Virus record (IMG/VR): IMGVR_UViG_3300036870_000006
Location: 1-45,994 of that record
Reading direction: 5' to 3' (one strand)
Source of the DNA: a virus
DNA length: 45,994 nucleotides
Shown: one piece after another, positions 28,806-42,317 of the stretch
How positions within the stretch are numbered: the stretch's first letter is position 1
How the letters are laid out: the number at the start of each line of letters is the position of its first letter
Notes under the pieces: generated by a model
What the model saw: the letters and a program-made list of their open reading frames with translations, nothing else
Told to the model about the DNA's origin: nothing
Database searches by the model: none
Made by a program: the position numbers and the translations under genes

Positions 28806-28866
28806 AGGTAACGGTTTTAGCACAGCAGACGGGCCTTTTCGGCCTGCTGCACAGCGCTTGTTATGC
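28806..28866 (+). other. attC-like recombination site A
   Basis: Left end AGGTAAC, right end GTTATGC. The inner CAGCAG...GGCC-TTTTC-GGCC...CTGCTG stem has a bulge of extrahelical bases (ACG). The 72-aa cassette gene begins 18 nt after the right end. Shape and polarity fit integron attC sites, but function is untested. Confidence 0.55.
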
Positions 28867-28883
28867 GTTGGGAGGTGATCGAA

Positions 28884-29102
28884 GTGGTAGAGCCTGTAAG
28901 CGAATTTGCATTCAAATACAACGGAAAATTAATTGATCTCATAATGATGAAATATGAGATCCGAAATTGTGGCGGTCGAAAAATCCACGAAAAAGGGCAG
29001 GCACTCTGTACACTCGCGTGTATCGTCGCTGATATTAACGAGGGCTTTGAGGTTGATGAAAGTCGAATTGACTGGGCGCTGGCTAAGTACGCCAACGCAT
29101 AA
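28884..29102 (+). CDS. Cassette-borne small protein
   Basis: 72 aa from GTG 28884, chosen because a perfect Shine-Dalgarno GGAGGTGATC lies just before it. The sequence is EFAFKYNGKLIDLIMMKYEI then ALCTLACIVADINEGFEVDE. No family recognised. It is framed by attC-like sites A and B, and its stop TAA is inside the left core of site B. The 16-bp leader GGAGGTGATCGAAGTG is identical to that of the gene at 41840. Confidence 0.65.
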   Translation: MVEPVSEFAFKYNGKLIDLIMMKYEIRNCGGRKIHEKGQALCTLACIVADINEGFEVDESRIDWALAKYANA

Positions 29103-29147
29103 CAGCCCTGCATTTGACCGGCCCGTCCGGTCGGAACGCGGTTAGCA
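29097..29147 (+). other. attC-like recombination site B
   Basis: Left end GCATAAC, right end GTTAGCA. Stem GACCGG-CCCGT-CCGGTC with unpaired GGAA on one side. The same central stem (ACCGG...CCGGT) occurs in sites D and I. The stop of the 72-aa gene overlaps the left core. Confidence 0.65.
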
Positions 29148-29180
29148 TCCCCTGTCATCAGGGGCGAGAGGGAGGGGAGA

Positions 29181-29327
29181 ATGAAGATTAATAGAGTTGC
29201 TAGACGCAAGATATTCTGCGTTAAATGCAGGAAAGATATCACCGGAAAAGTCCGCGTTGAAGGCCAAAATGGAGAAAATCCTAGGTGCCTGAAATGTGGT
29301 TTAGGTGTTACCGAAAATATAAGTTAG
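29181..29327 (+). CDS. Small zinc-ribbon protein
   Basis: 48 aa: MKINRVARRKIFCVKCRKDI, then NPRCLKCGLGVTENIS. CVKC and CLKC, 20 residues apart, form a zinc ribbon. Ribosome site ggaggggaga. Probable nucleic-acid or protein-binding module. Confidence 0.6.
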   Translation: MKINRVARRKIFCVKCRKDITGKVRVEGQNGENPRCLKCGLGVTENIS

Positions 29328-29357
29328 CCTCCCCTCGGGGAGATTGGAGGATGAGAG

Positions 29358-29552
29358 ATGAAACTGACAAATGTGAAAACTATCAACAAGAGGGTATCGT
29401 CCATGAGCTATGAAAATGGGTATGAGGATGGGCTGAATAAGGCTTGCGAGATAGCGGAAGGGTGCAAGTCACTCAACCCACACCCTGAACTTGGTGACGA
29501 TATTTGGGATGATGCTTGTCAACAAATAATAAAAACTATTAAGGCACTTTAG
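29358..29552 (+). CDS. Hypothetical small acidic protein
   Basis: 64 aa: SYENGYEDGLNKACEIAEGC then DIWDDACQQIIKTIKAL. A short helical protein with the common phage motif YxxGxxDGxxxAxEIA. Function unknown. Ribosome site ggaggatgag. Confidence 0.6.
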   Translation: MKLTNVKTINKRVSSMSYENGYEDGLNKACEIAEGCKSLNPHPELGDDIWDDACQQIIKTIKAL

Positions 29553-29582
29553 CCCCCTCCCCGGAGGGAAAGGAGATGGAAA

Positions 29583-29762
29583 ATGAGACAACCGATAGTT
29601 TATTCTGCTGAAGCAATTAAAAACTGGGATTGCGCCAAATACGAAAACCACCGATGGAGTCCGTCGCGTCCCGAAGGTCATAATCTTTCAAAGTGGTGGA
29701 AGAGATGGACTACCGCATGGGGAGTGCTGACAGGCAAATACGATGCCTTAACTTGGCAGTAG
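29583..29762 (+). CDS. Trp-rich small protein
   Basis: 59 aa from ATG 29583: MRQPIVYSAEAIKNWDCAKY then LSKWWKRWTTAWGVLTGKYD. Seven Trp in 59 residues. An upstream ATG at 29576 gives only 11 codons. The alternation of Trp and basic residues fits DNA or protein binding, but no family was recognised. Confidence 0.55.
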   Translation: MRQPIVYSAEAIKNWDCAKYENHRWSPSRPEGHNLSKWWKRWTTAWGVLTGKYDALTWQ

Positions 29763-29792
29763 CCCCGGCATGACCGGGGGAGGGGGAGAGAC

Positions 29793-30347
29793 GTGGAAGT
29801 CGCTGTTCTTTTTGTCAGAGCAGATTCGGAATACAAAAAAATGCCACAATGTGACTGTTACGATTTTGACCGTGATGCTCATTCGTTCTCTGGAGGTATG
29901 CCAGTAATTGCACATCCACCATGTAGAGCGTGGGGAGTGCTGGCACACATGGCAAAACCAAGACCGGGAGAACGCGACCTTGCGTTGTGGGCTGTAGATC
30001 AAGTGCGGACAAACGGTGGCTGCTTAGAGCATCCAGCTGGCAGCCGACTATGGAAAGAAGCGAATCTACCGGAAGAGGGCATGTTTCCTGATGAGTTCGG
30101 CGGATATACAGTAGAAATAGACCAATACGCATTCGGTCATGTGGCGAACAAGCCGACCAAAATTTACATTGTTGGCTGCCCTTTGCAAAAATTGCCGCCG
30201 ATACCGGTAAAACACGGGCGAGCTACAAAGTCGATCACAGGACAGGTGTCAGGCACTAAACGTTGTACGCAATTAGAAAGGGAGTATACACCCGAAGCAT
30301 TAAGACAATGGCTGTTGAATGTAGCTATCCAGTGCTCTAAAGTTTAG
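29793..30347 (+). CDS. HPPCR-motif phage protein of unknown function
   Basis: 184 aa from GTG 29793. VIAHPPCRAWGVLAHMAKPR at ~38-57, then LEHPAGSRLW and EIDQYAFGHVANKPTKIYIV. The PPC segment resembles the catalytic PPCQ of cytosine C5 methyltransferases, and this family is found on many phages without assigned role. No S-adenosylmethionine motif is evident, so enzymatic function is uncertain. Confidence 0.6.
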   Translation: MEVAVLFVRADSEYKKMPQCDCYDFDRDAHSFSGGMPVIAHPPCRAWGVLAHMAKPRPGERDLALWAVDQVRTNGGCLEHPAGSRLWKEANLPEEGMFPDEFGGYTVEIDQYAFGHVANKPTKIYIVGCPLQKLPPIPVKHGRATKSITGQVSGTKRCTQLEREYTPEALRQWLLNVAIQCSKV

Positions 30348-30371
30348 CCCCTCTCAGGGGAAGGAGGGAAA

Positions 30372-30509
30372 GTGACCGAATACATCTTTAAACCCGCCCG
30401 AAGTTTGACACCGGAGGAAATAGCCGACCTGATAGCAAAAGGCGAAATCACTCCGGTGGAGCGGATCAGGGACGGGCTGTTAAGGGAATCCAAGACCTGG
30501 ATTGATTAG
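30372..30509 (+). CDS. Small helical protein
   Basis: 45 aa from GTG 30372: VTEYIFKPARSLTPEEIADL then GEITPVERIRDGLLRES. Good site aaggagggaaa. Function unknown. Confidence 0.5.
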   Translation: MTEYIFKPARSLTPEEIADLIAKGEITPVERIRDGLLRESKTWID

Positions 30510-30534
30510 TCATTAACCATCACGGAGGGACAAC

Positions 30535-30783
30535 ATGGGAACAATTCACGCCGCCAGATTCGACGCTAGCCCCCGACTTCAAAGGGTATTCGCTCTACTC
30601 TCCGATGGTGACGAGTACACCACGCGCCGGATAGTCAGGGAAGCCGATGTATGCGCTGTCAATTCAATCATGGCAGAGCTTCGCCAGAACAGTATCCCCG
30701 TAACCTGTCGCATCCTTCGCAGAGGGGTTTATACTTATCAGCTAACGGAATTAGCCGGAGCGGTTTGGGTAATCAAGGAGTAA
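30535..30783 (+). CDS. Winged-helix-like regulator
   Basis: 82 aa. RLQRVFALLSDGDEYTTRRI then VNSIMAELRQNSIPVTCRIL and GVYTYQLT. The pattern (xxxVLxLLxDGxxxTTxxIVxxxxVxAVxSxIxELRxxG) is a small winged-helix domain common on phages and prophages. May control early gene expression. Confidence 0.65.
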   Translation: MGTIHAARFDASPRLQRVFALLSDGDEYTTRRIVREADVCAVNSIMAELRQNSIPVTCRILRRGVYTYQLTELAGAVWVIKE

Positions 30784-30804
30784 TCAAACGACACGGAGGG
30801 CACT

Positions 30805-31020
30805 TTGAAATACTTCACCATCAACAACTTCGACGTTTACATGTTCTCGCCCCATATCTCCCATGAGAGGCACCTTGCGGCTATCGGGCATACTGTCGGC
30901 CAAGTATCGGGCGCGGGGTTCTGGACTCCTGACAGGGGCTGTCACGGCTTTTCGGACTCTCTCAATATAGGGCCGGGGGTACTGGATAACGAACTCATAC
31001 GGATTGCACATGGAGGGTAA
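30805..31020 (+). CDS. Hypothetical early protein
   Basis: 71 aa from TTG 30805 (site ggaggg, 5 nt upstream). MKYFTINNFDVYMFSPHISH and RHLAAIGHTVGQVSGAGFWT. The pattern FxxSxxxSHxxxA suggests a recurring phage protein of unknown role. Its stop lies 1 bp before the next ATG (GGTAACATGG). Confidence 0.6.
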   Translation: MKYFTINNFDVYMFSPHISHERHLAAIGHTVGQVSGAGFWTPDRGCHGFSDSLNIGPGVLDNELIRIAHGG

Positions 31021-31021
31021 C

Positions 31022-31357
31022 ATGGCTAGAGAAATTAGGTTCAGGGCTTGGGATGGCGGAAAAATGTTAACGCCTGATTACATCGCCGATGACGGTGTAG
31101 CTTGCTATTGGTCGGATTGTAGGGTTGGACATCGCAAAGCCCATATCGTCATGCAGTTTACCGGACTCCTCGACAAGAACGGCAAAGAGATTTATGAGGG
31201 GGATATAATCCAATGGGATACATCTGATTATTCTGACTTGCGGTGCGCCGTGAGTTTTTGCCCTCCATCTTTTACCTTGCCGGGAGATGATGGTGGGAAC
31301 TTGGAAATCATTGGCAATATCTACGAAAACCCTGAATTGCTCGGAGGGCCAAAATGA
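31022..31357 (+). CDS. YopX-family protein
   Basis: 111 aa. REIRFRAWDGGKMLTPDYIA, VMQFTGLLDKNGKEIYEGDI and EIIGNIYENPELL are the hallmarks of the YopX family (IKFRAWDxxxxxM, QxTGLxDKxGKxIYEGDI, VIGNIxENPELL). Function of the family is unknown; very common in phages of many hosts. ATG chosen at 31022 by the family N-terminus. Confidence 0.85.
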   Translation: MAREIRFRAWDGGKMLTPDYIADDGVACYWSDCRVGHRKAHIVMQFTGLLDKNGKEIYEGDIIQWDTSDYSDLRCAVSFCPPSFTLPGDDGGNLEIIGNIYENPELLGGPK

Positions 31358-31506
31358 CCAACAAACTAATTCAAACCATCTTATGGGAGGAATCCAGATT
31401 CTCCCACCGAAAGCGGCGTATTCCCATGTGGGTGAAAGGTCTTCTCTACGGAGCGGCCTTTATTACCGCCGCTATCCTTGTGAGTAGCATTATTATCGGG
31501 AAATAA
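31354..31506 (+). CDS. Small single-pass membrane protein
   Basis: 50 aa with a basic N-terminal half (WEESRFSHRKRRIPMWVKG) and a hydrophobic C-terminal segment (LLYGAAFITAAILVSSIIIG). ATG overlaps the YopX stop (ATGA). Function unknown. Confidence 0.6.
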   Translation: MTNKLIQTILWEESRFSHRKRRIPMWVKGLLYGAAFITAAILVSSIIIGK

Positions 31507-31521
31507 GGAGGACTGGAAACC

Positions 31522-31647
31522 ATGACCGACTACTTGATATGGTACCTTGAGGTTCTGGGTCTCGCTATTATTGGCGCGGCGGCGGGGATATTGTTGGAGA
31601 AGGTAGCGTCAAGATTTATCGCCTCGCTGAAATGGCGAGAGCGGTAG
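31522..31647 (+). CDS. Small membrane protein
   Basis: 41 aa: MTDYLIWYLEVLGLAIIGAA, then AGILLEKVASRF and a basic tail. One short membrane segment. It follows another tiny membrane protein by 15 bp, suggesting a paired function. Unknown. Confidence 0.5.
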   Translation: MTDYLIWYLEVLGLAIIGAAAGILLEKVASRFIASLKWRER

Positions 31648-31654
31648 TTTTCGC

Positions 31655-31683
31655 TTGACTTTCCTTGTAACAATGAGTAGAGT
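31655..31683 (+). promoter_or_regulatory. Candidate promoter before Arc-like gene
   Basis: TTGACT (31655-31660), 17-nt spacer, TAGAGT (31678-31683). The -10 is weak. It is followed 31 bp later by ATG 31715. Confidence 0.4.
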
Positions 31684-31714
31684 TATGACAGCAATTCAAC
31701 AGAAAGGAGGCCAC

Positions 31715-31852
31715 ATGGAAAAGGAAACGAAGGGGTTTAACATCCGCAAACTTCCCGCCAGTTTGCACTTGCTGATTAAACGGAGGGCGGTTGACTCAGG
31801 GATCAGCATGGAGAAGTACATCATCGAAGCACTCAAGAAGGTAATCAAATAA
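31715..31852 (+). CDS. Arc-like ribbon-helix-helix protein
   Basis: 45 aa: GFNIRKLPASLHLLIKRRAV then SGISMEKYIIEALKKVI. A beta-strand with NIRKLP and two helices is the minimal Arc/MetJ ribbon-helix-helix dimer fold. Probably a DNA-binding repressor, possibly autoregulating via the promoter just upstream. Site aaggaggccac. Confidence 0.7.
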   Translation: MEKETKGFNIRKLPASLHLLIKRRAVDSGISMEKYIIEALKKVIK

Positions 31853-31876
31853 CTCAAGGGAACAGGGGGAAGAAAG

Positions 31877-32476
31877 ATGGACCTGAACAGTTTTTGCTGC
31901 AAAGATGAAACCCACCGGCACTACAATATCGACGCTCCATATTCTCAGGGTGAATGGACGTATGCAACAGACGGTAAGATTTTAATCAGAGTACCACGCT
32001 TACCTGAAATCACTAACGAAAAAGGCCCAAAATCGGAACCGCTGTTCAATGAAGCGATGTTGCGGCCTGTCACCGTCTGGCAATCATTGCCGCCGTTTGA
32101 ATTGGGAGTCGAGAATTGCGAATGGTGCTCAGGGACTGGCTACATGGTGGAATGTCCGAAAGTCTTAAATGCTCCAAAGTGCGCCAACGGAGAAAGCAAA
32201 GAATGCCAGATATACAACGATGATTGCCTTAAATCCTGTTTGCCCACTAACAAGTGCGCGATTCCTTGCGAAGATTGCAACGGAACCGGTAAAGTCAAAG
32301 ACCCCGGCAACATCATTATGGCGGGAAGCGTTGACGAGGAAGTAAGGGTTTCGGCAATATATCTGGACATGATAAAAGACCTGCCGAATGTCATGATTGC
32401 GCCTTACGATTGGCATTCTGCTATCAGGTTCAAATTCGACGGCGGTGAAGGACTTATCATGCCCATGAAAAGATAG
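31877..32476 (+). CDS. Protein with DnaJ-type zinc motifs
   Basis: 199 aa. Residues ~82-141 carry paired CxxCxGxG-like motifs (CEWCSGTG and CEDCNGTG) with further Cys pairs between, as in the DnaJ zinc finger. The flanking N- and C-terminal parts (YSQGEWTYATDGKILIRVPR; NVMIAPYDWHSAIRFKFDGG) look like a beta-clamp-related phage domain. Function unknown; protein or nucleic-acid binding is likely. Confidence 0.6.
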   Translation: MDLNSFCCKDETHRHYNIDAPYSQGEWTYATDGKILIRVPRLPEITNEKGPKSEPLFNEAMLRPVTVWQSLPPFELGVENCEWCSGTGYMVECPKVLNAPKCANGESKECQIYNDDCLKSCLPTNKCAIPCEDCNGTGKVKDPGNIIMAGSVDEEVRVSAIYLDMIKDLPNVMIAPYDWHSAIRFKFDGGEGLIMPMKR

Positions 32477-32508
32477 TTTAGCCCCGGCACAGCCGGAAGG
32501 GGGAAGAA

Positions 32509-32556
32509 ATGAAATGCGACTGCCACCGCCATTACGCCGACGAAAAGGAGGAATAA
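32509..32556 (+). CDS. Possible 15-aa leader peptide
   Basis: MKCDCHRHYADEKEE from ATG 32509 with a clear site (gggggaagaa). Its last codons contain the ribosome site (aaggaggaataaa) of the 108-aa gene, so it may serve to couple translation. May be fortuitous. Confidence 0.3.
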   Translation: MKCDCHRHYADEKEE

Positions 32557-32557
32557 A

Positions 32558-32884
32558 ATGACCATTAAGGAACAAATAACAGACCTGCAAGGCAAGACCC
32601 GTCAATTGAGGGCAGAAAACCCGATGATAACTGGGATATGGTGGGAAATCAACGATTTGCCTCTTGCTGAATTACAGCAGTTGGCAGACGAAAAGAAGGA
32701 TGATTGTACCTGCCTGGCAGATATTGTCGAGAGGGGAGGTGTGACTAAGTTTCAACTCCTGCTGAGCGGCGTCAATGGCGATACTATTTTCTGCTACTCT
32801 GTGCCGGTTGTGCGCGTATTCCCCAAACTGACTGAATATGTGCCGGTCAATACGCCTGAATCACCCGCAGGAGATGCGCTGTGA
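32558..32884 (+). CDS. Hypothetical early protein
   Basis: 108 aa. A helical N-terminus (MTIKEQITDLQGKTRQLRAE) and a beta-rich C-terminus (LLLSGVNGDTIFCYSVPVVR). No family recognised. The stop overlaps the next GTG. Confidence 0.6.
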   Translation: MTIKEQITDLQGKTRQLRAENPMITGIWWEINDLPLAELQQLADEKKDDCTCLADIVERGGVTKFQLLLSGVNGDTIFCYSVPVVRVFPKLTEYVPVNTPESPAGDAL

Positions 32885-32997
32885 ACTGTGACCCTGCATA
32901 CGAACACGGCCATAAATGGGACTATATTGGAATGGGTCCGAATGGCGGCAATCTTTACCGGTGCCGATGGTGCCATAATGAAGCCGAGGGGGATTGA
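32881..32997 (+). CDS. Tiny CxxC protein
   Basis: 38 aa from GTG 32881 (GTGA overlap): VNCDPAYEHGHKWDYIGMGP then NLYRCRWCHNEAEGD. HxxH...CxxC spacing suggests a zinc knuckle, a recurrent small phage format (HxW...xxYxCxxCG). Its TGA overlaps the nuclease ATG. Confidence 0.55.
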   Translation: MNCDPAYEHGHKWDYIGMGPNGGNLYRCRWCHNEAEGD

Positions 32998-33866
32998 TGA
33001 AAGCGGGAATCCACAAAATAAGCAATGAAGAGTATCACGCTGATCCTTGCCCGGTGCCGTCCCTGTCTCGCGGCACGATTGCCGACCTGATAGACTGCAC
33101 CCCAGCTCATGCTTGGTTCTTTCATCCGCGCTTGAATCCGGGAGGAGTTGAGGAGTCGGAAAGCAAATTCGATATTGGAACAGCGGCGCATTCGCTCTTT
33201 TTGGAGGGAATTGATTGCTGTGTCGTGATTGACGCCCCATCATGGCAGACTAAGGCCGCAAAAGAAGCCAGAGAAGAAGCAAGGATGGCCGGTAAAACGC
33301 CTTTACTCCGAAGTCAATATGATGATGTGCTTTTGATGGTCGAAGCGGCTCACAGGCAATTATCGGCCTCTGAACTTGGCATAAAAAACTTGTATACGGA
33401 AGGCGATTCTGAACTGACGTATATCTGGGAGGAAAACGGGACATGGTTCAGGGTTCGTCCTGACTGGATATCGCATAAGAAAATCGGCGGCAAGAAACTG
33501 GTGATAGATTTTAAGACCACCGGCATGAGTGCCGACCCTTCCCGTTTTAAAGCGGCAGATCACGGCAAAGACATTCAGTATGCCCTTTATCGGCGCGGCA
33601 TCAAGGCTATCGAAGGTGAATCCCCGCGCTTTATTTTCATGACGCAGGAAACCTATGCACCTTATCTCTGTTCATTTGTCGGACTTGACCCGGCAACGGC
33701 TGATATTGCCAAGCAAAAGGTTGAATACGGGAAATTCATGTGGGAACAGTGTATGGCTTCCGGAGAATGGCCGGGGTATCCGCAACGGGTATGTTATGTC
33801 GAGCCGAAACCGTGGGAACTTGCCGCATGGGAAGCAAAAGCGGCAACAATAGGACAGGGGGAATAA
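32997..33866 (+). CDS. PD-(D/E)XK exonuclease, RecE/DUF3799-like
   Basis: 289 aa. GIHKISNEEYHADPCPVPSL then SRGTIADLIDCTPAHAW, DIGTAAHSLFLEG, and the catalytic core KKLVIDFKTTG. This matches the phage RecE-type nuclease family (ISxxxYH... SxSxxxxLLxxSPxHxW; GxAxHxxxLE; DxKT). It probably resects DNA for recombination or replication restart together with the adjacent ATPase. ATG 32997 overlaps the upstream TGA. Confidence 0.75.
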   Translation: MKAGIHKISNEEYHADPCPVPSLSRGTIADLIDCTPAHAWFFHPRLNPGGVEESESKFDIGTAAHSLFLEGIDCCVVIDAPSWQTKAAKEAREEARMAGKTPLLRSQYDDVLLMVEAAHRQLSASELGIKNLYTEGDSELTYIWEENGTWFRVRPDWISHKKIGGKKLVIDFKTTGMSADPSRFKAADHGKDIQYALYRRGIKAIEGESPRFIFMTQETYAPYLCSFVGLDPATADIAKQKVEYGKFMWEQCMASGEWPGYPQRVCYVEPKPWELAAWEAKAATIGQGE

Positions 33867-33869
33867 ATC

Positions 33870-34805
33870 ATGACTGAATATAGCTTTAGACCGGCAATTA
33901 GGGAACAGGTAGGGCTTTTAATCGGGTTAGGCGGTGCATCGGGAAGCGGCAAGACCTTCTCGGCAATGCGCCTTGCATCCGGCATTGTTGGCCCGGATGA
34001 AAAGTTTGCGGTAATCGACACGGAGTCGCGTAGGTCGCTCCATTACGCCGATACGTTCAAATTTGACATTTGTGATCTTCACCCACCGTTCAGGCCGTCA
34101 AACTATGCGGATGCCATAGTTGCCGCTGACAAAGCCGGATACAAGGTTATAGTGGTTGATTCCATGTCTCATGAATGGGCGGGAGAGGGCGGAGTCCTCG
34201 ACTGGCAAGAAGAGGAACTCAACCGCATGGCCGGTGATAATTACGGCAAGCGTGAGGCGTGCAAAATGGCGGCTTGGATCAAGCCAAAGATGGACCATAA
34301 GAAAATGGTGCAACGTCTTTTACAGGTTAAGGCAACCATAATCCTATGCTTCCGCGCAGAAGAAAAGGTGAAGATGGAAAAGGATGCTCAAAACAAAACC
34401 GTCATTGTTCCTATCGGATGGCAACCTATCTGCGAAAAGAATCTTCCGTTTGAGTTGACAGTCTCTTTTCTTTTGACCCCTGATAAACCGGGGATGCCGC
34501 AACCGCTGAAACTTCAGGAGCAGCATAAAGCCCTTTTCCCTCTAAACAAACCAATTAACGAAGAATCCGGCAAACTGGTTGCTGAATGGGCGGCAGGAGG
34601 TGAGACCCCGCGACCGTCTATCATTTCCGAGCAACAGCAAAAAGACTTATGGAAATCGGCACAATCGGTGGGGATAACCCCTGAACAGTTTAAGGATAAA
34701 TTCGGCTCGCTCAAGACCTTTCCTATCGGCAAACTGTTTGAGGCTGAAGCATGGATAGAAGATATGAGGCTAGCTAGGAATCGTGAACCGGGGACGGAGG
34801 TCTAG
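33870..34805 (+). CDS. RecA-like AAA ATPase (recombination/replication accessory)
   Basis: 311 aa. Walker A GGASGSGKT at 21-29, Walker B VIVVD at 93-97 followed by SMSHEW, and a sensor-like ATIILCFRAEEK. The C-terminal ~70 residues are a charged extension. Phage proteins of this type (sometimes called AAA_24 or Sak4-like) accompany exonucleases in recombination modules, as here. Exact subclass is not certain. Confidence 0.7.
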   Translation: MTEYSFRPAIREQVGLLIGLGGASGSGKTFSAMRLASGIVGPDEKFAVIDTESRRSLHYADTFKFDICDLHPPFRPSNYADAIVAADKAGYKVIVVDSMSHEWAGEGGVLDWQEEELNRMAGDNYGKREACKMAAWIKPKMDHKKMVQRLLQVKATIILCFRAEEKVKMEKDAQNKTVIVPIGWQPICEKNLPFELTVSFLLTPDKPGMPQPLKLQEQHKALFPLNKPINEESGKLVAEWAAGGETPRPSIISEQQQKDLWKSAQSVGITPEQFKDKFGSLKTFPIGKLFEAEAWIEDMRLARNREPGTEV

Positions 34806-34807
34806 CC

Positions 34808-35146
34808 ATGAACTGCCCAAAGTGCCGCGCAAGACTGATATTCTATCCCCTTCCCGGCGATGTTTTGGCTTGGCGATGCATGATTTGCGGCTATTACAGG
34901 GAGGATGTCCCCGCCGATATTCCCCCCGCCAAGACCCGCAAGCCATACGGCAAGCGTTATCCCTGCACCCTAGTTGGATGCGAGGGAACGCACCGAGGGA
35001 ACGAAAGGGAGCTTTGCCATACTCATTCGGAGATGATGCGGAAATATGAAGATCACATGGCGAAGAGGCCGCACAGTAACGCCCTGCCGCCCTTTGTCAG
35101 ATCGGGCGCAGGGTGGGTAGTTAATTCGAGAAAGGGGGCAATATGA
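34808..35146 (+). CDS. Zinc-finger protein
   Basis: 112 aa. MNCPKCRARLIFYPLPGDVL then CMICGYY make one four-Cys ribbon (CxxC...CxxC); a later C...C...C-x-H arrangement (YPCTLVGCEGTHRGNERELC) may make a second site. Starts 2 bp after the ATPase stop. Function unknown. Confidence 0.6.
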   Translation: MNCPKCRARLIFYPLPGDVLAWRCMICGYYREDVPADIPPAKTRKPYGKRYPCTLVGCEGTHRGNERELCHTHSEMMRKYEDHMAKRPHSNALPPFVRSGAGWVVNSRKGAI

Positions 35147-35427
35147 GTGGGGGCCATTTCAACTACGATCAATTCAGGATCGGAGAGATAGCAAACGAAA
35201 TTGAGGAGATGATTCAGAACAACAACATTGACGCAAAGGACAGCTACGGAGATCCGGTCGGCTACCATTTTACGCCGGAAACTATGGCCAAATTCCAGGA
35301 AGCAGTCGCCACATTGCGGAAAGCTCATATCATGGCACAAAGAGTGGATTGGTTAGTTTCGGGTGACGATGGGGAAGATTCCTTCCATCGGAGATGGGAT
35401 GAAGAACTTAGCAAATTAGCCCCTTGA
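35143..35427 (+). CDS. Conserved small phage protein (SGGHFNY)
   Basis: 94 aa: MSGGHFNYDQFRIGEIANEI then FTPETMAKFQEAVATLRKAH and RVDWLVSGDDGEDSFHRRWD. The SGGHFNY opening and VDxxLSGDxGExxxxxR(W/L)xxE(L) end are a recognisable, widely distributed phage family without known function. ATG overlaps the upstream TGA. Confidence 0.75.
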   Translation: MSGGHFNYDQFRIGEIANEIEEMIQNNNIDAKDSYGDPVGYHFTPETMAKFQEAVATLRKAHIMAQRVDWLVSGDDGEDSFHRRWDEELSKLAP

Positions 35428-36338: not shown

Positions 36339-38026
36339 AAACATGGGCGGAATTAGGAATAGAGATTAGACCCGGGGCAACAGGCAATCATGCAACAAAT
36401 TGTCCGCAATGCTCACCCCACAGAAAGAACTCCAAGGCTAAGTGCCTGAGTGCAAACATTGAGGAAGGTTTATGGTTATGTCACCATTGTGGCTATTCCG
36501 GATCCCTGAAACAAGGGGTTGATCGCAAAAGCAATCCTTACGAGTGGGTGCCGAAGGTGTGGAAAAAACCTCAGTATCAGGTATCAGACCCCCGGGATAA
36601 GACGCTTGATTGGTTTTTGGTAAGAGGCATCCCGGGATCCGTTGTACTCCGGAACAAGATCACAACAGGCAAGGTCTGGATGCCGCAGGTTGAGGCGGAG
36701 GTTGATTGTATCCGCTTCCCCTTCATCCGGAACGGTGAAGTGGTTAACATTAAGTCCCGGGATGCAAAAAAGAATTTCCGACAAGAATCGGGAGCCGAGC
36801 GTATTTTTTATGGCATGGACGATGTAACCGGATCCACCATGATTATTGTCGAAGGTGAGATAGACAAGCTATCACTTGAGGTTGCCGGATTTTTAAATAC
36901 CGTATCGGTTCCGGATGGCGCACCGTCACCGAAAGCGAAGGATTATACAAGCAAGTTTGACTTTCTGGAAAACTGCGAGGAGTGGCTTGAGAAGATAGAA
37001 ACCATCATTTTAGCGGTGGACGCTGATGATCCCGGGCAGGTATTACAGGAAGAACTGGCCCGGAGATTAGGCAAGGATAGATGTAAACTGGTGCAATGGC
37101 CGGAAGGCTGCAAGGATGCCAACGAAGTATTGGTGACTCATGGCTCCGAGATGCTGAGGGATAAGATAAGCCAAGCGCGGCATTATCCGGTTGAAGGAAT
37201 CTTTGAAATAACAGACCTGCAAAAGCAGATACTAAACCTTTACAGGGACGGATCTGAGGGTGGCTTGTCTCCCGGTTGGCCTTCTGTCAAAGAACTCTAC
37301 ACCGTCCGCCCGGGGGAATGGACATTGATAACCGGGATCCCGGGACATGGTAAGTCAGAGTTTTTAGATGCCATACTTGTGAATCTTATGTGGTCAAACT
37401 GGCGGTTTGCAATCTTCAGCCCTGAGAATCAGCCGCTACAGCTCCATGTTGCCAAGCTGATGGAGAAGGTGGCTGGACTACCTTTTCACAGAGGCGTTAC
37501 AAAGCGTATGGATGAAAATTCAGTCAAGGAAGGAATGGGGCTTTTGAATAATGTTTTCACCTTCATTCTTCCGCCTGAAGATGAAATCACCATAGACGGT
37601 ATTTTGTCCCGGGCTAAGACGTTGGTATTAAGGAAAGGGATTAAAGGGCTCGTAATTGATCCATGGAACGAATTAGACCACAAACGCTCCGGATTCTTAA
37701 CCGAAACCGAGTACATTTCGCAAGCTCTGTCAAAGGTGAGGCGATTCGCCCGGGCTTATGGGATACATATCTGGCTTGTAGTCCATCCAACAAAGCTACA
37801 GAAAAATGCAGAAGGTGATTACCCTGTGCCGACTCCTTACGATTGCCAAGGTTCCGCACACTGGCGGAATAAAGCTGATAACTGCATCGCAGTCTATCGG
37901 AACATGAAAAACGATGATGTTGAAATCCATGTACAAAAGATCAGGTTCAAGGAAGTGGGCAAAGTGGGCATGGTGCCGCTGAAATATGACAAAGTAACCG
38001 GGAGGTATAGCGATGGCAAGAGTTGA
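36335..38026 (+). CDS. T7 gp4-like primase-helicase
   Basis: 563 aa from ATG 36335, overlapping the upstream TGA. An N-terminal CHC2-like zinc finger uses Cys23, Cys26, Cys49 and Cys52 (NCPQC... LCHHCGYSG). The TOPRIM core is VEGEID (172-177) with AVDADDPG (227-234). The RecA-like helicase has Walker A GIPGHGKS (334-341), Walker B-like KGLVIDPWNE, and a QGSAHWRNKADN motif near the end. It unwinds DNA and makes RNA primers at the phage fork. The phage encodes no recognisable DNA polymerase, so host polymerase is probably used. Confidence 0.88.
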   Translation: MKTWAELGIEIRPGATGNHATNCPQCSPHRKNSKAKCLSANIEEGLWLCHHCGYSGSLKQGVDRKSNPYEWVPKVWKKPQYQVSDPRDKTLDWFLVRGIPGSVVLRNKITTGKVWMPQVEAEVDCIRFPFIRNGEVVNIKSRDAKKNFRQESGAERIFYGMDDVTGSTMIIVEGEIDKLSLEVAGFLNTVSVPDGAPSPKAKDYTSKFDFLENCEEWLEKIETIILAVDADDPGQVLQEELARRLGKDRCKLVQWPEGCKDANEVLVTHGSEMLRDKISQARHYPVEGIFEITDLQKQILNLYRDGSEGGLSPGWPSVKELYTVRPGEWTLITGIPGHGKSEFLDAILVNLMWSNWRFAIFSPENQPLQLHVAKLMEKVAGLPFHRGVTKRMDENSVKEGMGLLNNVFTFILPPEDEITIDGILSRAKTLVLRKGIKGLVIDPWNELDHKRSGFLTETEYISQALSKVRRFARAYGIHIWLVVHPTKLQKNAEGDYPVPTPYDCQGSAHWRNKADNCIAVYRNMKNDDVEIHVQKIRFKEVGKVGMVPLKYDKVTGRYSDGKS

Positions 38027-38150
38027 GAGCATACAGGAAATTTTGCCCCGAGTGTTAATCGGAATCCGTGAGAAGATTCTGGATGAAGAATTTACTCCAG
38101 AAAGAAGTCTGCAAGTCGACCAGATAGACGAGCTTCTGGATAAATGGTAA
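38013..38150 (+). CDS. Small helical protein after primase-helicase
   Basis: 45 aa from ATG 38013: MARVESIQEILPRVLIGIRE then DQIDELLDKW. Overlaps the helicase end by 14 bp. Site gggaggtatagcg. Unknown function. Confidence 0.55.
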   Translation: MARVESIQEILPRVLIGIREKILDEEFTPERSLQVDQIDELLDKW

Positions 38151-38193
38151 TCAACCCCCGGCCACGTACCGGGGGTAAAAAAGGAGGAACAAC

Positions 38194-38406
38194 ATGGGAC
38201 CATACCTACCATCAAACGGAACAGAGATGATGCAGTTTTACGACAACTGGTGCGACAAGTGCCAGAATCCGGCAGAACTGGCATGGGTAAACGAGGATAT
38301 ACCCCCCGGTTGCCCATACATCGTCCAAGCGACGGCCATGAATGAACAGCCGGAAGTGTGGGTGATTAAGGACGGGGAAGCGTGTTGCACGGCGTTTGAA
38401 GAATAA
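38194..38406 (+). CDS. Small Cys-containing protein
   Basis: 70 aa. MMQFYDNWCDKCQNPAELAW gives a CxxC, with two further Cys near GCPYIV and an EACCTAFE end. Likely zinc-binding; this short format (WCDxCxxxxxxxx...CxAF) recurs in phages. Function unknown. Confidence 0.6.
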   Translation: MGPYLPSNGTEMMQFYDNWCDKCQNPAELAWVNEDIPPGCPYIVQATAMNEQPEVWVIKDGEACCTAFEE

Positions 38407-38409
38407 TCA

Positions 38410-38438
38410 TTGACAACCCCGCTTAAATGGTTTATATT
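38410..38438 (+). promoter_or_regulatory. Strong promoter for XRE regulator and cassette array
   Basis: Perfect TTGACA (38410-38415), 17-nt spacer, TATATT (38433-38438), 31 bp before ATG 38470. This is the best consensus promoter in the early block. It would transcribe the attC-like cassette array downstream. Confidence 0.75.
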
Positions 38439-38469
38439 TCATTTATCAATCAATTTCGACGGGGGGTAT

Positions 38470-38682
38470 ATGAAGATAGATGGAAGCAAATTCAAGGAAG
38501 CAAGAGCTAAGTCCGGCGCATCAGCTTTTGAACTGGCGAAAGCGGCGAAGTACAAGAACAACAACGTCACCCGTATTTACCAGATCGAGGCAAACGGCGT
38601 CCACGAGGTCCCCGATATCCGCCTTGCCGCCATGTGCCGCAGGATGGGTGTTGGTATGAGGTCCTTGAGGGCGGAGGTCTAA
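38470..38682 (+). CDS. XRE-type helix-turn-helix regulator
   Basis: 70 aa from ATG 38470 (site gacggggggtat). MKIDGSKFKEARAKSGASAF then ELAKAAKYKNNNVTRIYQIE and IRLAAMCRRMGVGMRSL follow the Cro/XRE pattern (LKxxRxxxGxSxxxLAxxxxxxxxxIxxIExG...P...LxxxAxxLxV). Probably a transcription regulator, possibly of its own promoter. Its stop TAA lies inside the left core of attC-like site C. Confidence 0.75.
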   Translation: MKIDGSKFKEARAKSGASAFELAKAAKYKNNNVTRIYQIEANGVHEVPDIRLAAMCRRMGVGMRSLRAEV

Positions 38683-38729
38683 CGGCCATGCGTTTGACCT
38701 GCTTTGGCAGGTCGTAACGCTGGTTATCT
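38677..38729 (+). other. attC-like recombination site C
   Basis: Left end GTCTAAC fits RYYYAAC perfectly; right end GTTATCT. The stem GCGTT-t-GACCTGC / GCAGGTC-gt-AACGC has a TTTG loop and unpaired bases exactly between the two helical blocks, as in attC sites. The upstream stop codon is inside the left core. Confidence 0.7.
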
Positions 38730-38746
38730 ATTTTTGAGAGGTGAGT

Positions 38747-39034
38747 ATGCTACTACGAAGATTTATGAAGCGCAGAGATACCGATACATACGAAGGGTAC
38801 TTCTGGGTTATCTGGCAAAGCAAGCGGATAGCGTGGAAGTGGCTGATGGTCGACTGGCAGAAGCGTCCAATGTTTAAAATGTGGGTGTTTAAAGTATGGC
38901 CGACTGGCAACAATAAATTCATGTGGTGGCCTAGATTCCACGCTGTAATTCATCTTGGCCCGATAGGTTTCGACAGATGCAATTCAAGTCATTCCTTTTG
39001 GATAGGTAATTACAGGCTGATACACCACTATTAG
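38747..39034 (+). CDS. Cassette-borne Trp-rich protein
   Basis: 95 aa from ATG 38747 (site gagagg). Twelve Trp, with many Arg/Lys (SKRIAWKWLMVDWQKRPMFK, FKVWPTGNNKFMWWPRFHAV). No family recognised. It starts 18 nt after the right core of site C and is followed by site D. Composition differs from neighbours. Confidence 0.6.
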   Translation: MLLRRFMKRRDTDTYEGYFWVIWQSKRIAWKWLMVDWQKRPMFKMWVFKVWPTGNNKFMWWPRFHAVIHLGPIGFDRCNSSHSFWIGNYRLIHHY

Positions 39035-39040
39035 GTGTTT

Positions 39041-39088
39041 GGATAACACAAGCATCACCGGCCCGTCCGGTCCATGCGGGAGTTGGAA
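39041..39088 (+). other. attC-like recombination site D
   Basis: Left end GGATAAC, right end GTTGGAA. Stem GCAT-c-ACCGG-CCCGT-CCGGT-cc-ATGC, with unpaired C/CC between the two blocks. Nearly identical core to site I. Confidence 0.65.
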
Positions 39089-39097
39089 AGGAATAAT

Positions 39098-39331
39098 ATG
39101 CACCTATCACCACTAATCACCATATTGGAAGCGGTACTCACTCGCCCCACGCCCCGCAAGCGTCCTGCCGCCATGAAATTTGCCTGTGACGTCTGCGGGG
39201 AAGATAAGCCGGTGAAGGGTCAACGCGCTATATTTATCCGACACAAGATAGTGGGGAGGGCGTGTGAGGGGTGCAGACGGAAAATGTCGGTTGAGGAAAT
39301 GCGGTCAATTATTACAGGAGGGGTTCAATAA
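39098..39331 (+). CDS. Cassette-borne zinc-ribbon protein
   Basis: 77 aa from ATG 39098. CDVCGEDKPVKGQRAIFIRH and RACEGCRRKMSVEEMRS form a four-Cys ribbon. Starts 9 nt after site D. Its stop overlaps the next ATG. Function unknown. Confidence 0.6.
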   Translation: MHLSPLITILEAVLTRPTPRKRPAAMKFACDVCGEDKPVKGQRAIFIRHKIVGRACEGCRRKMSVEEMRSIITGGVQ

Positions 39332-39579
39332 TGACACTCATCACTTTCATGAAGGAAGTTGAAAAGGAAGCCATCAGGGGCTTTGAAAAATACGGCCCTT
39401 GGGAAGAACTCAGCAACAAAAAACAGAGGGATGCTGTGAAGTCCGAATGTCTGGAATGGGAGGCCGCGAGTCTCAAGACCGGCAAAGAGGGTGTCATGCG
39501 GGAGATGCAGGAGTTGACTCATTTGGCGAATTGTTGCGCTAAACGGTGGATTGAGTTGCACCATAAACTATCGCTGTAG
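39331..39579 (+). CDS. Small helical protein (phage family of unknown function)
   Basis: 82 aa. FMKEVEKEAIRGFEKYGPWE then AVKSECLEWEAASLKTGKEG and REMQELTHLANCCAKRWIEL. The helix content, with an E-x-x-E pattern and a D/E...H... element, resembles small MazG-like or nucleotide-binding phage proteins, but this is not certain. Ends at the left core of site E (TAG in TGTAGC). Confidence 0.55.
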   Translation: MTLITFMKEVEKEAIRGFEKYGPWEELSNKKQRDAVKSECLEWEAASLKTGKEGVMREMQELTHLANCCAKRWIELHHKLSL

Positions 39580-39628
39580 CGTGACCAGCGGCGGGTTTTT
39601 GCCGACTGGTCCACAGCGTTGGTTATAT
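39574..39628 (+). other. attC-like recombination site E
   Basis: Right end GTTATAT is good; the left end CTGTAGC has AGC in place of AAC. The stem GACCAG-CGGC ... GCCG-a-CTGGTC has one extrahelical A. The left core appears degenerate, so this site may be inactive. Confidence 0.5.
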
Positions 39629-39652
39629 TTGCGATCCACTAAAGGAGGAACC

Positions 39653-39757
39653 ATGTACATCTGCACGAAATGCGGGAAACACTTTACTCCGAAGATTGAG
39701 AAGCCTTGGAGGGGTATGTTGTTCTTGTCCTGTCCGGAATGCGAGGAAAAGAAATGA
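39653..39757 (+). CDS. Tiny zinc-ribbon protein
   Basis: 34 aa: MYICTKCGKHFTPKIEKPWR then LSCPECEEKK. CxxC...CxxC zinc ribbon. Site aaggaggaacc. Stop overlaps the next start. Confidence 0.6.
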   Translation: MYICTKCGKHFTPKIEKPWRGMLFLSCPECEEKK

Positions 39758-40044
39758 GCTATCTGCATTGTCACAATTGCGATTGGGAACAGGATGATTT
39801 TTACAGCATTGATGGTTACAACCCGGCGAAATCGCTGGCCGATTGGAACGAAATTCTTTGCGGGGAACGACTCTCAGAAAGGATGAACGGGGACGGGAAA
39901 ACTTTTCGTGAAGCTATTGCCCAGGACTATGAAAAATTTGCACGAAGAATCCGCAATATGAAGTGGGTCACTTGGGAACAGTGGAAAGCGGAACCGATCA
40001 AGGTTTGTCCGAAATGCGGTTCGCGCAACCTCGATATTGATTGA
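39754..40044 (+). CDS. Phage zinc protein of unknown function
   Basis: 96 aa. MSYLHCHNCDWEQDDFYSID at the start and CPKCGSRNLDID at the end give two distant CxxC pairs. The centre is helical (FREAIAQDYEKFARRIRNMK) with aromatic pairs (WEQW). The format resembles a widespread phage protein with HC.NC.W.QDDF, function unknown. Confidence 0.65.
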   Translation: MSYLHCHNCDWEQDDFYSIDGYNPAKSLADWNEILCGERLSERMNGDGKTFREAIAQDYEKFARRIRNMKWVTWEQWKAEPIKVCPKCGSRNLDID

Positions 40045-40093
40045 GCAAATATAACTAAGGGGTAGCCTGCGGGCGGGGAAAGGAGGGGGAGGG

Positions 40094-40297
40094 ATGCCAA
40101 AATGGAGAGGTTTTTGGCTATGTGTTCATACATGGTCGGTTTGGAGTCTGCCAATAATGACGAATGATGGTCATGTTCAGCAGTGGCGCAGGTGTTCATA
40201 TTGTGGTAAAGCGTCTTTTCGCACTTTACGATGGCACAGACAGTCAACTCTTGCAGATATCCTTAAAGCCCTGCTTTCTCTGGATACGGAGGAATAG
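40094..40297 (+). CDS. Hypothetical small protein
   Basis: 67 aa: VHTWSVWSLPIMTNDGHVQQ, RRCSYCGKASFRTLRW. One CxxC. Unknown function. Site gggaggg. Confidence 0.55.
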   Translation: MPKWRGFWLCVHTWSVWSLPIMTNDGHVQQWRRCSYCGKASFRTLRWHRQSTLADILKALLSLDTEE

Positions 40298-40300
40298 TAC

Positions 40301-40492
40301 ATGACCGCCCGCACAAAAGACCGCCTCTGCTGTCTCATCCTCGCCGCCGTCATTATCTTCATCGGCGTGAAGGTGAAGGAGAGAGCACCGGAGCCGGTGA
40401 GGAAGGGATTGGTGACTATCGGGAGGGAAACAATGATGGAGCCGGTACGCTGTTCTGATTGCCATATTTCACTTTCAAGGATGAAACCGTGA
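40301..40492 (+). CDS. Small membrane-anchored protein
   Basis: 63 aa. A basic start and one hydrophobic segment (RLCCLILAAVIIFIGVKVKE), then a soluble tail with a CSDC pair. The stop overlaps the next GTG. Unknown function. Confidence 0.55.
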   Translation: MTARTKDRLCCLILAAVIIFIGVKVKERAPEPVRKGLVTIGRETMMEPVRCSDCHISLSRMKP

Positions 40493-40895
40493 GATTTACA
40501 GAGCAAGAATATGAAGACATGATGAAGCGCAAGGGAATGAAAGCCCCCGCTCCACCCACCCTTGCCGAAGTCGGAGAAAAGTACGGCCTTACAGCAAAGA
40601 AAGAAAGCATACGGTTGGTACTCCCGTTTAAACTCCCGACATGGAATAAACTTTTGGCGATGGATCACTGGCAAAGGGCAAAGGTACGCAATTGGATAAA
40701 AGAGCGAGTATTAGAGTGCATTCAAAGCGGTGTAGAATGGCAGACCCCGACGGGATTAGTGCGAAAGCTGTCATTGACGGACTTGTGCTTGGCGGAATAC
40801 TTGTCGATGATGGAGCCAAATTCGTCAAAGAAGTTACGTTTACACAAGAAACTTGCAAAACAGAAGAAACCATAATTGACATAACATGGGGCTAA
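40489..40895 (+). pseudogene. RusA-like Holliday-junction resolvase split by a frameshift
   Basis: The frame from GTG 40489 gives SIRLVLPFKLPTWNKLLAMD then HWQRAKVRNWIKERVLECI, which fits the RusA N-terminal half. The RusA C-terminal signature appears in the other frame: DPDGISAKAVIDGLVLGGIL, then VDDGAKFVKEVTF (compare DxDNxxKxxxDxLxxxGxxxDDxxV). The switch of -1 lies about 40710-40745. It is either a sequencing or assembly indel, a true pseudogene, or a programmed shift. If single frames are taken, the first ends at 40875 and the second runs to 40895. No canonical slippery heptamer was found. Confidence 0.6.
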
Positions 40896-40914
40896 TGCTA
40901 AATGGAGCAAAAAA

Positions 40915-41256
40915 GTGACAACATTTTTCAAGGATAGGACACCCAAAGACCCTAAGTACCTGAAATGGATTGACACCCAGCCCTGCCTTGTTTGCGGCGG
41001 TCAATCCACACATCACCACTGGCAGAAAAAAGGTCATGGGGCGAAAGGTATGCGCTGTTCGGACTTCAGAGCCGTACCTCTTTGCTCCGGACTTACCGGC
41101 CACCATGAAGAATTCCACCGAGTCGGCAGAGACACCTTTGCGGCTAATCATCGGATAGATATCGAAAAGGAAATATCGCGGCTTCTGGCAAAATGGCAAA
41201 ACGCCCGCCCACCCTCTGGCATAGCGACGGTATGCGATATATTGGAGAGTAGTTAA
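40915..41256 (+). CDS. HNH-like nuclease, Ref/DUF968-type
   Basis: 113 aa from GTG 40915. CLVCGGQSTHHHWQKKGHGA, then CSDFRAVPLCSGLTGHHEEF and HRVGRDTFAANH match the phage HNH family related to P1 Ref and NinX-region DUF968 (CxxCG...HHxxxxGxGxKxSDxxxVPLCxxHHxExHxxG). Such proteins cleave DNA in recombination-linked processes. Stop TAA is inside the left core of site F. Confidence 0.7.
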   Translation: MTTFFKDRTPKDPKYLKWIDTQPCLVCGGQSTHHHWQKKGHGAKGMRCSDFRAVPLCSGLTGHHEEFHRVGRDTFAANHRIDIEKEISRLLAKWQNARPPSGIATVCDILESS

Positions 41257-41310
41257 CGGGCCGGTGCTTGACCAGACGGTTTTTCGGTCTGGTCGGAGCA
41301 CTGGTTAGGG
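41251..41310 (+). other. attC-like recombination site F
   Basis: Left end AGTTAAC, right end GTTAGGG. Stem GTGC-tt-GACCAGAC ... GTCTGGTC-gga-GCAC with an ~8-nt loop and unpaired tt/gga between the blocks. This is the most canonical-looking site. The stop of the upstream gene is within TAAC and the next ATG is 10 nt after the right end. Confidence 0.72.
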
Positions 41311-41320
41311 CGGATTTTCG

Positions 41321-41734
41321 ATGCCATTCATGACGCAAGAGCAAATCAACTGGGCGTGCGACACCATCGGCGATCTCCTCCGGGAGTGGAAGCGCCTCCA
41401 CGATGAAAACGAATCCCTGAAAAGGGAAATTCAGCAGTACAAGGAGAAAGAAATGACTTGGGGAGCAAGGATTCTGAAAGCGGATGGAACGGCGAAGGAT
41501 GGGGATTATCAGGCCTGCCAGAGCTGCAAGCACGGGCAGTACGATTTTCAGACTGATGATCCGAACTGGAAGAAGATCCAGCCGTGCTACCTGCCGAAGG
41601 TCGCCGCGCAGATCGGTAGCATTTTGACCTGCGTTGACATCTCGGCTGCCGGACATATGGCGAGCGGCCAGGCGAATCTTCTGTGTAACGGCTATGAGCC
41701 CATCGCCGAACCGGAAACCGAACCGGACCACTAG
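41321..41734 (+). CDS. Cassette-borne coiled-coil/zinc protein
   Basis: 137 aa. The N-terminal ~40 residues are coiled-coil (LLREWKRLHDENESLKREIQ). From Met45 there is a second unit (MTWGARILKADGTAKDGDYQ, CQSCKHGQYDFQTDD) with its own ribosome site (aaggagaaagaa before ATG 41453). So it may be a fusion, or two nested products. Function unknown. Confidence 0.6.
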   Translation: MPFMTQEQINWACDTIGDLLREWKRLHDENESLKREIQQYKEKEMTWGARILKADGTAKDGDYQACQSCKHGQYDFQTDDPNWKKIQPCYLPKVAAQIGSILTCVDISAAGHMASGQANLLCNGYEPIAEPETEPDH

Positions 41735-41773
41735 GGCTGAAAACCGGGGCGGAGGGTGAACGCAAGCCCTTCG

Positions 41774-41823
41774 CCCTAACGGCTTGAACACAGCGGCTTG
41801 ACCGCTGCTGTGTTTGGTTATTT
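41774..41823 (+). other. attC-like recombination site G
   Basis: Left end CCCTAAC, right end GTTATTT. Stem AACACAGC...GG / CC...GCTGTGTT with a 3-nt bulge on one arm. It lies 39 bp after the upstream stop. The next start is 16 nt downstream and uses the same 16-bp leader as the gene after site A. Confidence 0.6.
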
Positions 41824-41839
41824 TTAGGAGGTGATCGAA

Positions 41840-42025
41840 GTGCTAAAAGTTTCTGACATCGAAATGATAGAGGACAATGGAACATTCCAATTAGCCATTG
41901 GTAAAAGTTGCGTAACTGGATTCAACTTCAAGACGAGAGATGCTTGCTATAAATCGTATATCGTCGAATTGATCCGAAGTATCGAAAAGGCAAAAGGCGC
42001 GTTAACGCACAACACAGGCTTTTAA
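41840..42025 (+). CDS. Cassette-borne small protein
   Basis: 61 aa from GTG 41840, chosen by the leader GGAGGTGATC just upstream. VSDIEMIEDNGTFQLAIGKS then YIVELIRSIEKAKGALTHNT. No family recognised; no similarity to the 28884 protein visible apart from the shared leader. Stop lies at the left core of site H. Confidence 0.6.
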   Translation: MLKVSDIEMIEDNGTFQLAIGKSCVTGFNFKTRDACYKSYIVELIRSIEKAKGALTHNTGF

Positions 42026-42080
42026 AATAACGGCTTGAATTGAAGCGCAAGCGCAGCCGCCTTCCAATGTTTTGTTATGG
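42025..42080 (+). other. attC-like recombination site H
   Basis: Left end AAATAAC, right end GTTATGG. Stem ATTG-AAG...CTT-cc-AAT with unpaired bases around a larger terminal loop. Less symmetrical than C, F or I. Confidence 0.5.
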
Positions 42081-42103
42081 TGCGCTGCTGATCGGAGACA
42101 AGA

Positions 42104-42268
42104 ATGGAATGTAAGCACGGCAGAGAAAATAAGTCATCATGTTGGGAATGCGCTTTTGAGAAAGAGGTTAAAAAACTGCCTAAATTTATGCGTGATATGG
42201 GGTCAACCGAAAGATATCTGTTGCCCTTCTGGAATGCAGCACAGTCGGTGGCTAGGAAGGCAAAATAA
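42104..42268 (+). CDS. Cassette-borne small protein with Cys pairs
   Basis: 54 aa: MECKHGRENKSSCWECAFEK then STERYLLPFWNAAQSVARKA. CxxH...CxxC suggests zinc binding. Its stop TAA is inside the left core of site I. Confidence 0.6.
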   Translation: MECKHGRENKSSCWECAFEKEVKKLPKFMRDMGSTERYLLPFWNAAQSVARKAK

Positions 42269-42310
42269 CGCAAGCATGACCGGCTTGTCCGGTCCATGCA
42301 ATAGTTAAGG
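42263..42310 (+). other. attC-like recombination site I
   Basis: Left end AAATAAC, right end GTTAAGG. Stem GCAT-g-ACCGG-CTTGT-CCGGT-cc-ATGC. Nearly the same as site D. The next ATG follows 8 nt after the right end, a spacing typical of integron cassettes. Confidence 0.7.
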
Positions 42311-42317
42311 AGTGCAA

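Follow-up and report, generated by a model that had tools for sequence, protein, structure and literature searches.

Reversed integron cassettes in a phage early region and their probable exchange by an integrase acting in trans

Clusters of attC sites lacking integron integrases (CALINs) have been described in phages before. A screen of 10,705 phage genomes is reported to have yielded 17 CALINs, and five of six tested phage attC sites recombined with attI1 through IntI1 in vivo (Qi et al. 2023, PMC9892861). The CALINs of the phages TJE1 (Tetrasphaera), PH101 (Pseudoalteromonas, GenBank H101) and P12002L (Polaribacter) consist, like the locus considered here, of attC clusters with small genes and no integrase (PMC9892861). 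This locus lies in the IMG/VR virus record IMGVR_UViG_3300036870_000006, which was analysed at its whole length of 45,994 bases (the window) and contains nine hairpins, termed sites A to I. A first-pass annotation had stated that no such phage array was known, which the published screen contradicts. As phage CALINs are already published, what is new here is the natural gain and exchange of cassettes between phages, together with a reversed design. We think it likely, with a probability of roughly 0.8, that this phage carries in its early region a CALIN of reversed cassettes that are exchanged by an integron integrase (IntI) supplied in trans.

The nine hairpins, bounded by YAAC and GTT, are present where the first-pass annotation had placed them, and they are integron attC sites. 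A strict attC descriptor recovers sites C, F and I, and at its cut-off of 8.5 the number of matches in six Markov-1 resamplings of the window was 0, 0, 0, 0, 0 and 2. Because this simple stem-bulge descriptor proved too strict and missed most real attC sites, a covariance model (R1) was built in its place from 26 attC sites of class-1 integron plasmids, Desulfobacterota integrons and phage TJE1, with no sequence from the window. When both strands were searched with filters off, eight of the nine best matches were sites B to I (scores in Table 1), and the top match outside the sites had 9.6 bits. Twelve matches were obtained at an E-value of 10, eight of them inside about 0.5 kb of the 92-kb search space, and this clustering at the predicted sites is not chance; E-values below 1 were reached by only six of the nine sites. 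A covariance search, the kind of check that had been proposed, supports B to I, leaves site A unmatched and assigns a polarity other than the expected one. Site A is retained as a putative site through homology to a relative, since the 45 bp of its right arm match positions 13089-13133 of L001, an R1 site of 25 bits, at 91% (L numbers are our handles for the compared sequences).

The elements expected of attC sites are found as well. The R''/R' boxes read TAAC...GTTA/G in eight of the nine sites, site E having no YAAC as it sits in a secondary site, and the matches at B to I, all on the minus strand, are imperfect hairpins that have L boxes and extrahelical bases whose asymmetry sets the polarity. 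Site F folds at -15.3 kcal/mol with a z of -5.6. Over 13 aligned sites of the clade, 89% of the pair cells are paired and slid structures fail, and the number of cells with a change in both partners is 41, compared with 14.7 in shuffles. This is supportive only, as the alignment had been fitted to the model. A second model, R2, made from the clade alignment, was dropped because it was sequence-only and its bulge column had been mis-registered by MAFFT. Sites C to F and F to I each lie within 4 kb and the record has no PF00589 match, which corresponds to a CALIN; a complete integron is not seen, as no tyrosine recombinase occurs in the record (possibly a fragment) and attI was not searched for. 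None of the nine sites reaches the 20 bits that Qi et al. applied with their model, the window maximum with R1 being 19.7, so that a screen at bit score 20 with HattCI and Infernal, a different model, would probably miss the array. Standard score cut-offs probably miss such arrays in general, and their frequency is therefore likely underestimated. Close relatives score up to 39 bits with R1.

The evidence that decides the matter is movement of the cassettes, which could be followed by comparison with a close relative. The sequences L195 and L228 are parts of one relative of 45,314 bases, whose two ends share a gene, and its structural-gene blocks are mostly 83-97% identical to those of the window. 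Identity was counted over 45 bases on either side of the predicted cut (marked by an arrow). At junctions C and F homology is found on the left and lost on the right (41/45 then 11/45 against L228 at C, 40/45 then 15/45 against L195 at F), and at junctions D and I the reverse holds (15/45 then 38/45 against L228, 13/45 then 38/45 against L195). The left end of cassette E gives 40/45 then 11/45 against L195, and its right end 13/45 then 39/45. All six junctions fall on the predicted cut, C, D, F and I at TAA↓C and the ends of E at the same cut in a secondary site. The interval from C to D holds one cassette in the window and two different ones in L228, and from F to I three window cassettes are exchanged for three others in L195. 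Site D with its downstream open reading frame (ORF) is 89% identical to L228 9226-9500, cassette I is 89% identical to L195 2392-2605 with the match starting at the core, and the protein of the HNH endonuclease gene before site F is 88% identical in L195, with homology ending at TAACGG. Recombination at G↓TT(A), or AA↓C on the other strand, is thus seen by comparison at these six junctions and also at the ends of cassette E in the contig L240. The expectation that relatives would gain or lose whole cassettes with breakpoints at the core was therefore borne out.

The orientation of the cassettes is the reverse of what the first-pass annotation had assumed, which was sites on the plus strand and ORFs followed by their own attC. 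At B to I every R1 match is to the minus strand, the strand that does not carry the genes here, and the top 16 matches in the relatives L228, L003, L199, L001 and L195 are likewise all minus. In the attC sites of aadA and of TJE1 the extra unpaired bases are in the arm beside the upstream stop codon, and the asymmetric bulge of the window sites, in the right arm on plus, is the mirror image, so that their minus-strand sequences read like ordinary attC sites. As the attC is kept with the downstream ORF at D and I, and the upstream ORF is kept while the hairpin changes at C and F, a cassette consists of an attC and the ORF downstream of it, antiparallel to that attC. The canonical arrangement, an ORF upstream of and co-oriented with its attC, is not what is found. 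Often the R' core, which is GTTA on minus and TAAC on plus, provides the TAA stop of the ORF. The first-pass annotation had correctly located stops inside TAAC at B, C, F and I, and those of the tight array in L001 also fall in TAAC. Such stops touching the left box are what ordinary cassettes, with both ORF and attC on plus and captured from host integrons, would show, and this is the one feature that recommends such an origin. It is barely credible, as every match of the covariance model has minus polarity, cassette E starts with its attC, and conservation at C, D, F and I ties each attC to the downstream ORF. Near-identical attC sites at L228 9021-9072 and L231 2864-2915 precede different ORFs in two phages, from which it follows that attC and ORF can be re-paired. 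In addition, L231 3292-3353 resembles L199 20758-20819.

Cassette E is a clean insertion of 483 bp (39572-40054), with C at its start and TAA at its end, into ACTAT↓CTAAGG, and it is missing in L195. On the minus strand the insertion point reads G↓ATAG, and cleavage at G↓AT has been described for secondary sites of IntI (PMC10127599). L240/L241 encodes a relative of the 96-amino-acid E protein with 64% identity, and the cassette as a whole, from hairpin to TAA, is found in L240 1458-1979 with about 70% identity and matching ends. L240 represents a different phage with a G+C content of 0.38 and, as judged by eye, dUTPase-like and HNH endonuclease-like genes; there cassette E adjoins a second cassette, and this two-cassette island has a G+C content of about 0.45 between flanks of about 0.31. 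At the right end, window and L240 agree in 41/45 positions up to TAA↓ and in 9/45 beyond. The left core in L240 is a normal GATAA↓C, which accounts for the TAGC of the window copy that had been taken for a degenerate core, as the window copy sits in the secondary site ACTAT↓C (39571/39572). The E protein has no relative in INPHARED.

Another process that could shuffle these genes is homologous recombination between short conserved hairpins or leaders, the attC likeness stemming from an old capture and the sites now being inert linkers. The phage does encode recombination proteins (exonuclease VIII-like and Sak4/AAA-like), and conserved leaders at 29325-29361, 29550-29582 and 29761-29788, identical or nearly so in L228, flank unrelated ORFs that were exchanged without attC. 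However, cassette E entered a place without attC or leader homology on the left, with the ends C...TAA that recur between unrelated flanks in L240, and at C and F homology ends at TAA↓C ahead of the hairpin, which a hairpin-to-hairpin crossover does not favour. We therefore regard this explanation as unlikely for the attC-bounded cassettes.

The leaders just mentioned belong to a second type of module, consisting of G+C-rich TAGCC...GGAGG leader hairpins, with a further copy in the window at 40052-40096 and counterparts in the relative at L228 742-778, 1033-1065 and 1295-1322 and at L195 139-183 and 335-374. They are 89-100% identical between window and relative, at least one ORF between them is unrelated, and no attC is involved. 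This looks like a separate linker-based arrangement for gene swapping.

The hairpins could also be mainly RNA leader elements that couple stop codon, ribosome-binding site and next start, with an attC look acquired by convergence. They do stand directly 5' of ribosome-binding sites, the loops of some relatives hold the start codon, and both strands fold. Leaders are not expected, however, to show R boxes, the bulge asymmetry of attC sites or a signal with a model trained on attC sites, and the core breakpoints and the cassette common to unrelated phages indicate movement. A purely RNA-structural role, which the first-pass annotation had allowed for, is thus quite improbable given cassette E with matching ends in two unrelated phages, while RNA and attC roles can coexist and an additional RNA role is possible. 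Ribosome-binding site and/or start codon lie inside the attC loop at L195 1746-1858, L199 11941-12072, L003 13103-13225 and L240 1141-1233, so that these ORFs are read through the right half of their own attC. Cassettes A and G share the leader GGAGGTGATCGAAGTG (28863-28900 and 41820-41850) ahead of unrelated ORFs.

For the preferred reading, exchange of reversed cassettes by IntI in trans, the following sequence of events is proposed. On the transcribed strand a cassette reads 5'-C, attC hairpin, GTT(A/G), ribosome-binding site, ORF, TAA-3', the attC standing in the leader of its own gene and pointing against it, with the R' core often giving the stop codon. In an infected cell that expresses an integron integrase, the enzyme would act on the folded plus strand, which is the bottom strand of the attC, and cut it at AA↓C. 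The cassettes would then excise and either integrate beside another attC or jump into G↓AT secondary sites, and phages may in this way swap small early genes that ride on phage transcription. IntI in trans as the enzyme, its timing and the adaptive role of the exchange are inferred.

The enzyme is presumably a host IntI. Among cellular proteins, the primase-helicase has its closest relative (57%) in a Desulfuromonadaceae genome with three IntI genes over the curated cut-off, and in this candidate host phylum 87 of 247 genomes have IntI above cut-off. This frequency and the genome of the helicase relative make IntI in trans plausible, although the host is not thereby identified; since no tRNA genes were found across the window, tRNAs give no clue to it either. 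The tyrosine recombinase of L001 is an ORF of 203 amino acids, too short for a full IntI, and no PF00589 match was found in the L003 and L199 records. The first-pass proposal of exchange via host IntI therefore holds for the exchange of cassettes by a recombinase in trans, which the core breakpoints support, and stays presumptive for the source of the enzyme. Several points weigh against the preferred reading: the phage has no IntI of its own (no PF00589 match in the window record or that of L195), R1 scores in the window are low (19.7 bits at most) and site A is unmatched, and the early region is also mosaic where no attC lies, other recombination thus acting too. Moreover, a search of 395 bacterial genomes from the candidate phylum did not find the E protein, which leaves exchange with bacterial integrons unsupported.

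The cassette proteins of the window are small and mostly without an assigned family; that of cassette A has no family above cut-off, and that of cassette C no relative in IMG/VR. Among the products of cassettes in related or other phages are DNA methyltransferases and a protein of the PAPS-reductase family that resembles SspD; the methyltransferases are in accord with those reported by Qi et al. A role of this cargo in counter-defence is a reasonable guess.

How general the reversed design is was assessed with the DNA pattern TAACGGCTTGA-N(18-48)-GGTTAT, which fixes the core sequence and not the direction of ORFs. The pattern cannot be claimed as phage-enriched, as it has 102 occurrences in viral contigs and one in 297 Desulfobacterota genomes, while controls with the reversed pattern gave numbers of similar size; being uninformative on enrichment by itself, it was counted only where R1 supported the match. 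The resulting sample comprises R1-supported sites in 25 IMG/VR contigs (L313 and L316 are contigs already included as L003 and L001), several of which carry terminase or replication genes of different families. Sites antiparallel to the local genes make up 45 of 56 in phages and 0 of 30 in bacterial integrons (Fisher P 2e-14), and an antiparallel ORF of at least 35 codons with the core as TAA is found at 38 of 55 phage and 4 of 21 bacterial sites (Fisher P 2e-4); at the level of contigs, 19 of 25 against 0 of 7 are antiparallel (P 5e-4). These statistics treat as independent some sites that are not entirely so, and the ORF calls behind them are crude. When the longest ORF per cassette is counted, bacteria have 19 co-oriented and 3 antiparallel, and the clade of the window 16 antiparallel and 2 co-oriented. 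Exceptions are the co-oriented TJE1 and L238 with at least one co-oriented cassette. Automatic orientation is also noisy: in L056 (235-4727) about nine attC sites are on plus and the recognisable genes, C5 and N6/N4 DNA methyltransferases, on minus, and yet most were called co-oriented. The contrast of 45/56 with 0/30 suggests a separate phage cassette pool. We lean slightly towards the broader view that several phage lineages share a pool of reversed cassettes, distinct in orientation from the bacterial pool and moved by host integron integrases, as a means to exchange early and counter-defence genes.

In the window, the minus strand carries the genes for portal, terminase, head closure and DNA ejection, and recombination and replication genes (exonuclease VIII-like, Sak4/AAA-like, replisome organizer, primase-helicase) are on plus at about 33-38 kb, with the nine sites on both sides of this block within the plus-strand early region. 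Searches of the window in Rfam and by megablast against INPHARED phages matched nothing. The large terminase gene (22129-24810, minus) has an insertion of 341 amino acids, at about residues 108-448, with a weak Hom_end (homing endonuclease) match; it is missing in the close relative L235 and is probably an intein.

Table 1. Sites, cassettes and the adjoining HNH gene in the window.
Feature	Coordinates	Strand	Core (cut)	R1 bits	Remarks
Site A	28809..28865	-			attC-like hairpin; left core TAAC 28809-28812, right GTTA at 28860; no R1 match
Cassette A	28812..29102	+			attC A and ORF, GTG, 28884-29102; TAA is core of B
Site B	29100..29146	-	TAA↓C, 29102/29103	10.5	
Site C	38680..38728	-	38682/38683	13.3	
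Cassette C	38683..39046	+			attC C and 95-amino-acid ORF 38747-39034; two other cassettes here in L228
Site D	39044..39087	-	39046/39047	15.2	
Cassette D, up to E insertion point	39047..39571	+			attC D, ORFs 39098-39331 and 39331-39579, the second ending within the E insert
Site E	39565-39625	-		9.0	
Cassette E, 483 bp	39572..40054	+			begins with C, then attC E; two ORFs, the first with ATG in GGAACCATG and end at 39757, the second 39754-40044; terminates AAATATAA
HNH endonuclease gene	40915..41256	+			phrog_96 HNH; TAA stop is core of site F
Site F	41254..41309	-	41256/41257	16.2	
Cassette F	41257..41779	+			attC F and ORF 41321-41734 (137 amino acids); replaced in L195
Site G	41777..41822	-	41779/41780	18.1	
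Cassette G	41780..42030	+			attC G and ORF 41840-42025 (61 amino acids); missing in L195
Site H	42028..42079	-	42030/42031	12.5	
Cassette H	42031..42268	+			attC H and ORF 42104-42268, ending in core of I; missing in L195
Site I	42266..42309	-	42268/42269	19.7	
Cassette I	42269..42479	+			attC I and ORF 42318-42479; common to L195

Phage genomes are mosaic, yet there are few precise mechanisms by which an individual small gene can pass from one phage to an unrelated one. In the present case the points of cutting are resolved to the base, two phages that are not related have one cassette in common, and the likely enzyme is a host protein that can be assayed; the reversed orientation moreover yields a simple prediction, the strand used by IntI. 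In the literature searched, outside of which lie preprints and most subscription papers, no paper was found that describes phages gaining or exchanging cassettes in nature, or a reversed orientation across phages. The attC sites of PH101 (L007 25918-27988) are, by R1, antiparallel to the annotated genes as in the window, of which no mention was found in the accessible part of PMC9892861, whereas the CALIN of TJE1 is co-oriented.

Compared with the phage CALINs of Qi et al., the window thus differs by its nine weaker sites, their position in two stretches around the replication genes, the reversed design, the core serving as stop codon and the evidence of movement. With bacterial cassettes, as in class 1 integrons and the chromosomal integrons of Desulfobacterota, it shares the attC boxes, the bulge asymmetry, the G↓TT cut and promoterless small ORFs, but there the ORF is co-oriented with a downstream attC in 30 of 30 sampled sites, whereas in the window the attC is upstream and antiparallel. 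Insertion of cassettes at secondary, non-attC sites is likewise known, from aadB in RSF1010 (Recchia and Hall 1995, cited in PMC10127599) and from attG sites (Loot et al. 2024, cited in PMC11389934). Cassette E resembles these cases in being inserted at G↓AT outside any attC, and differs from them in having entered the early region of a phage and in its reversed build.

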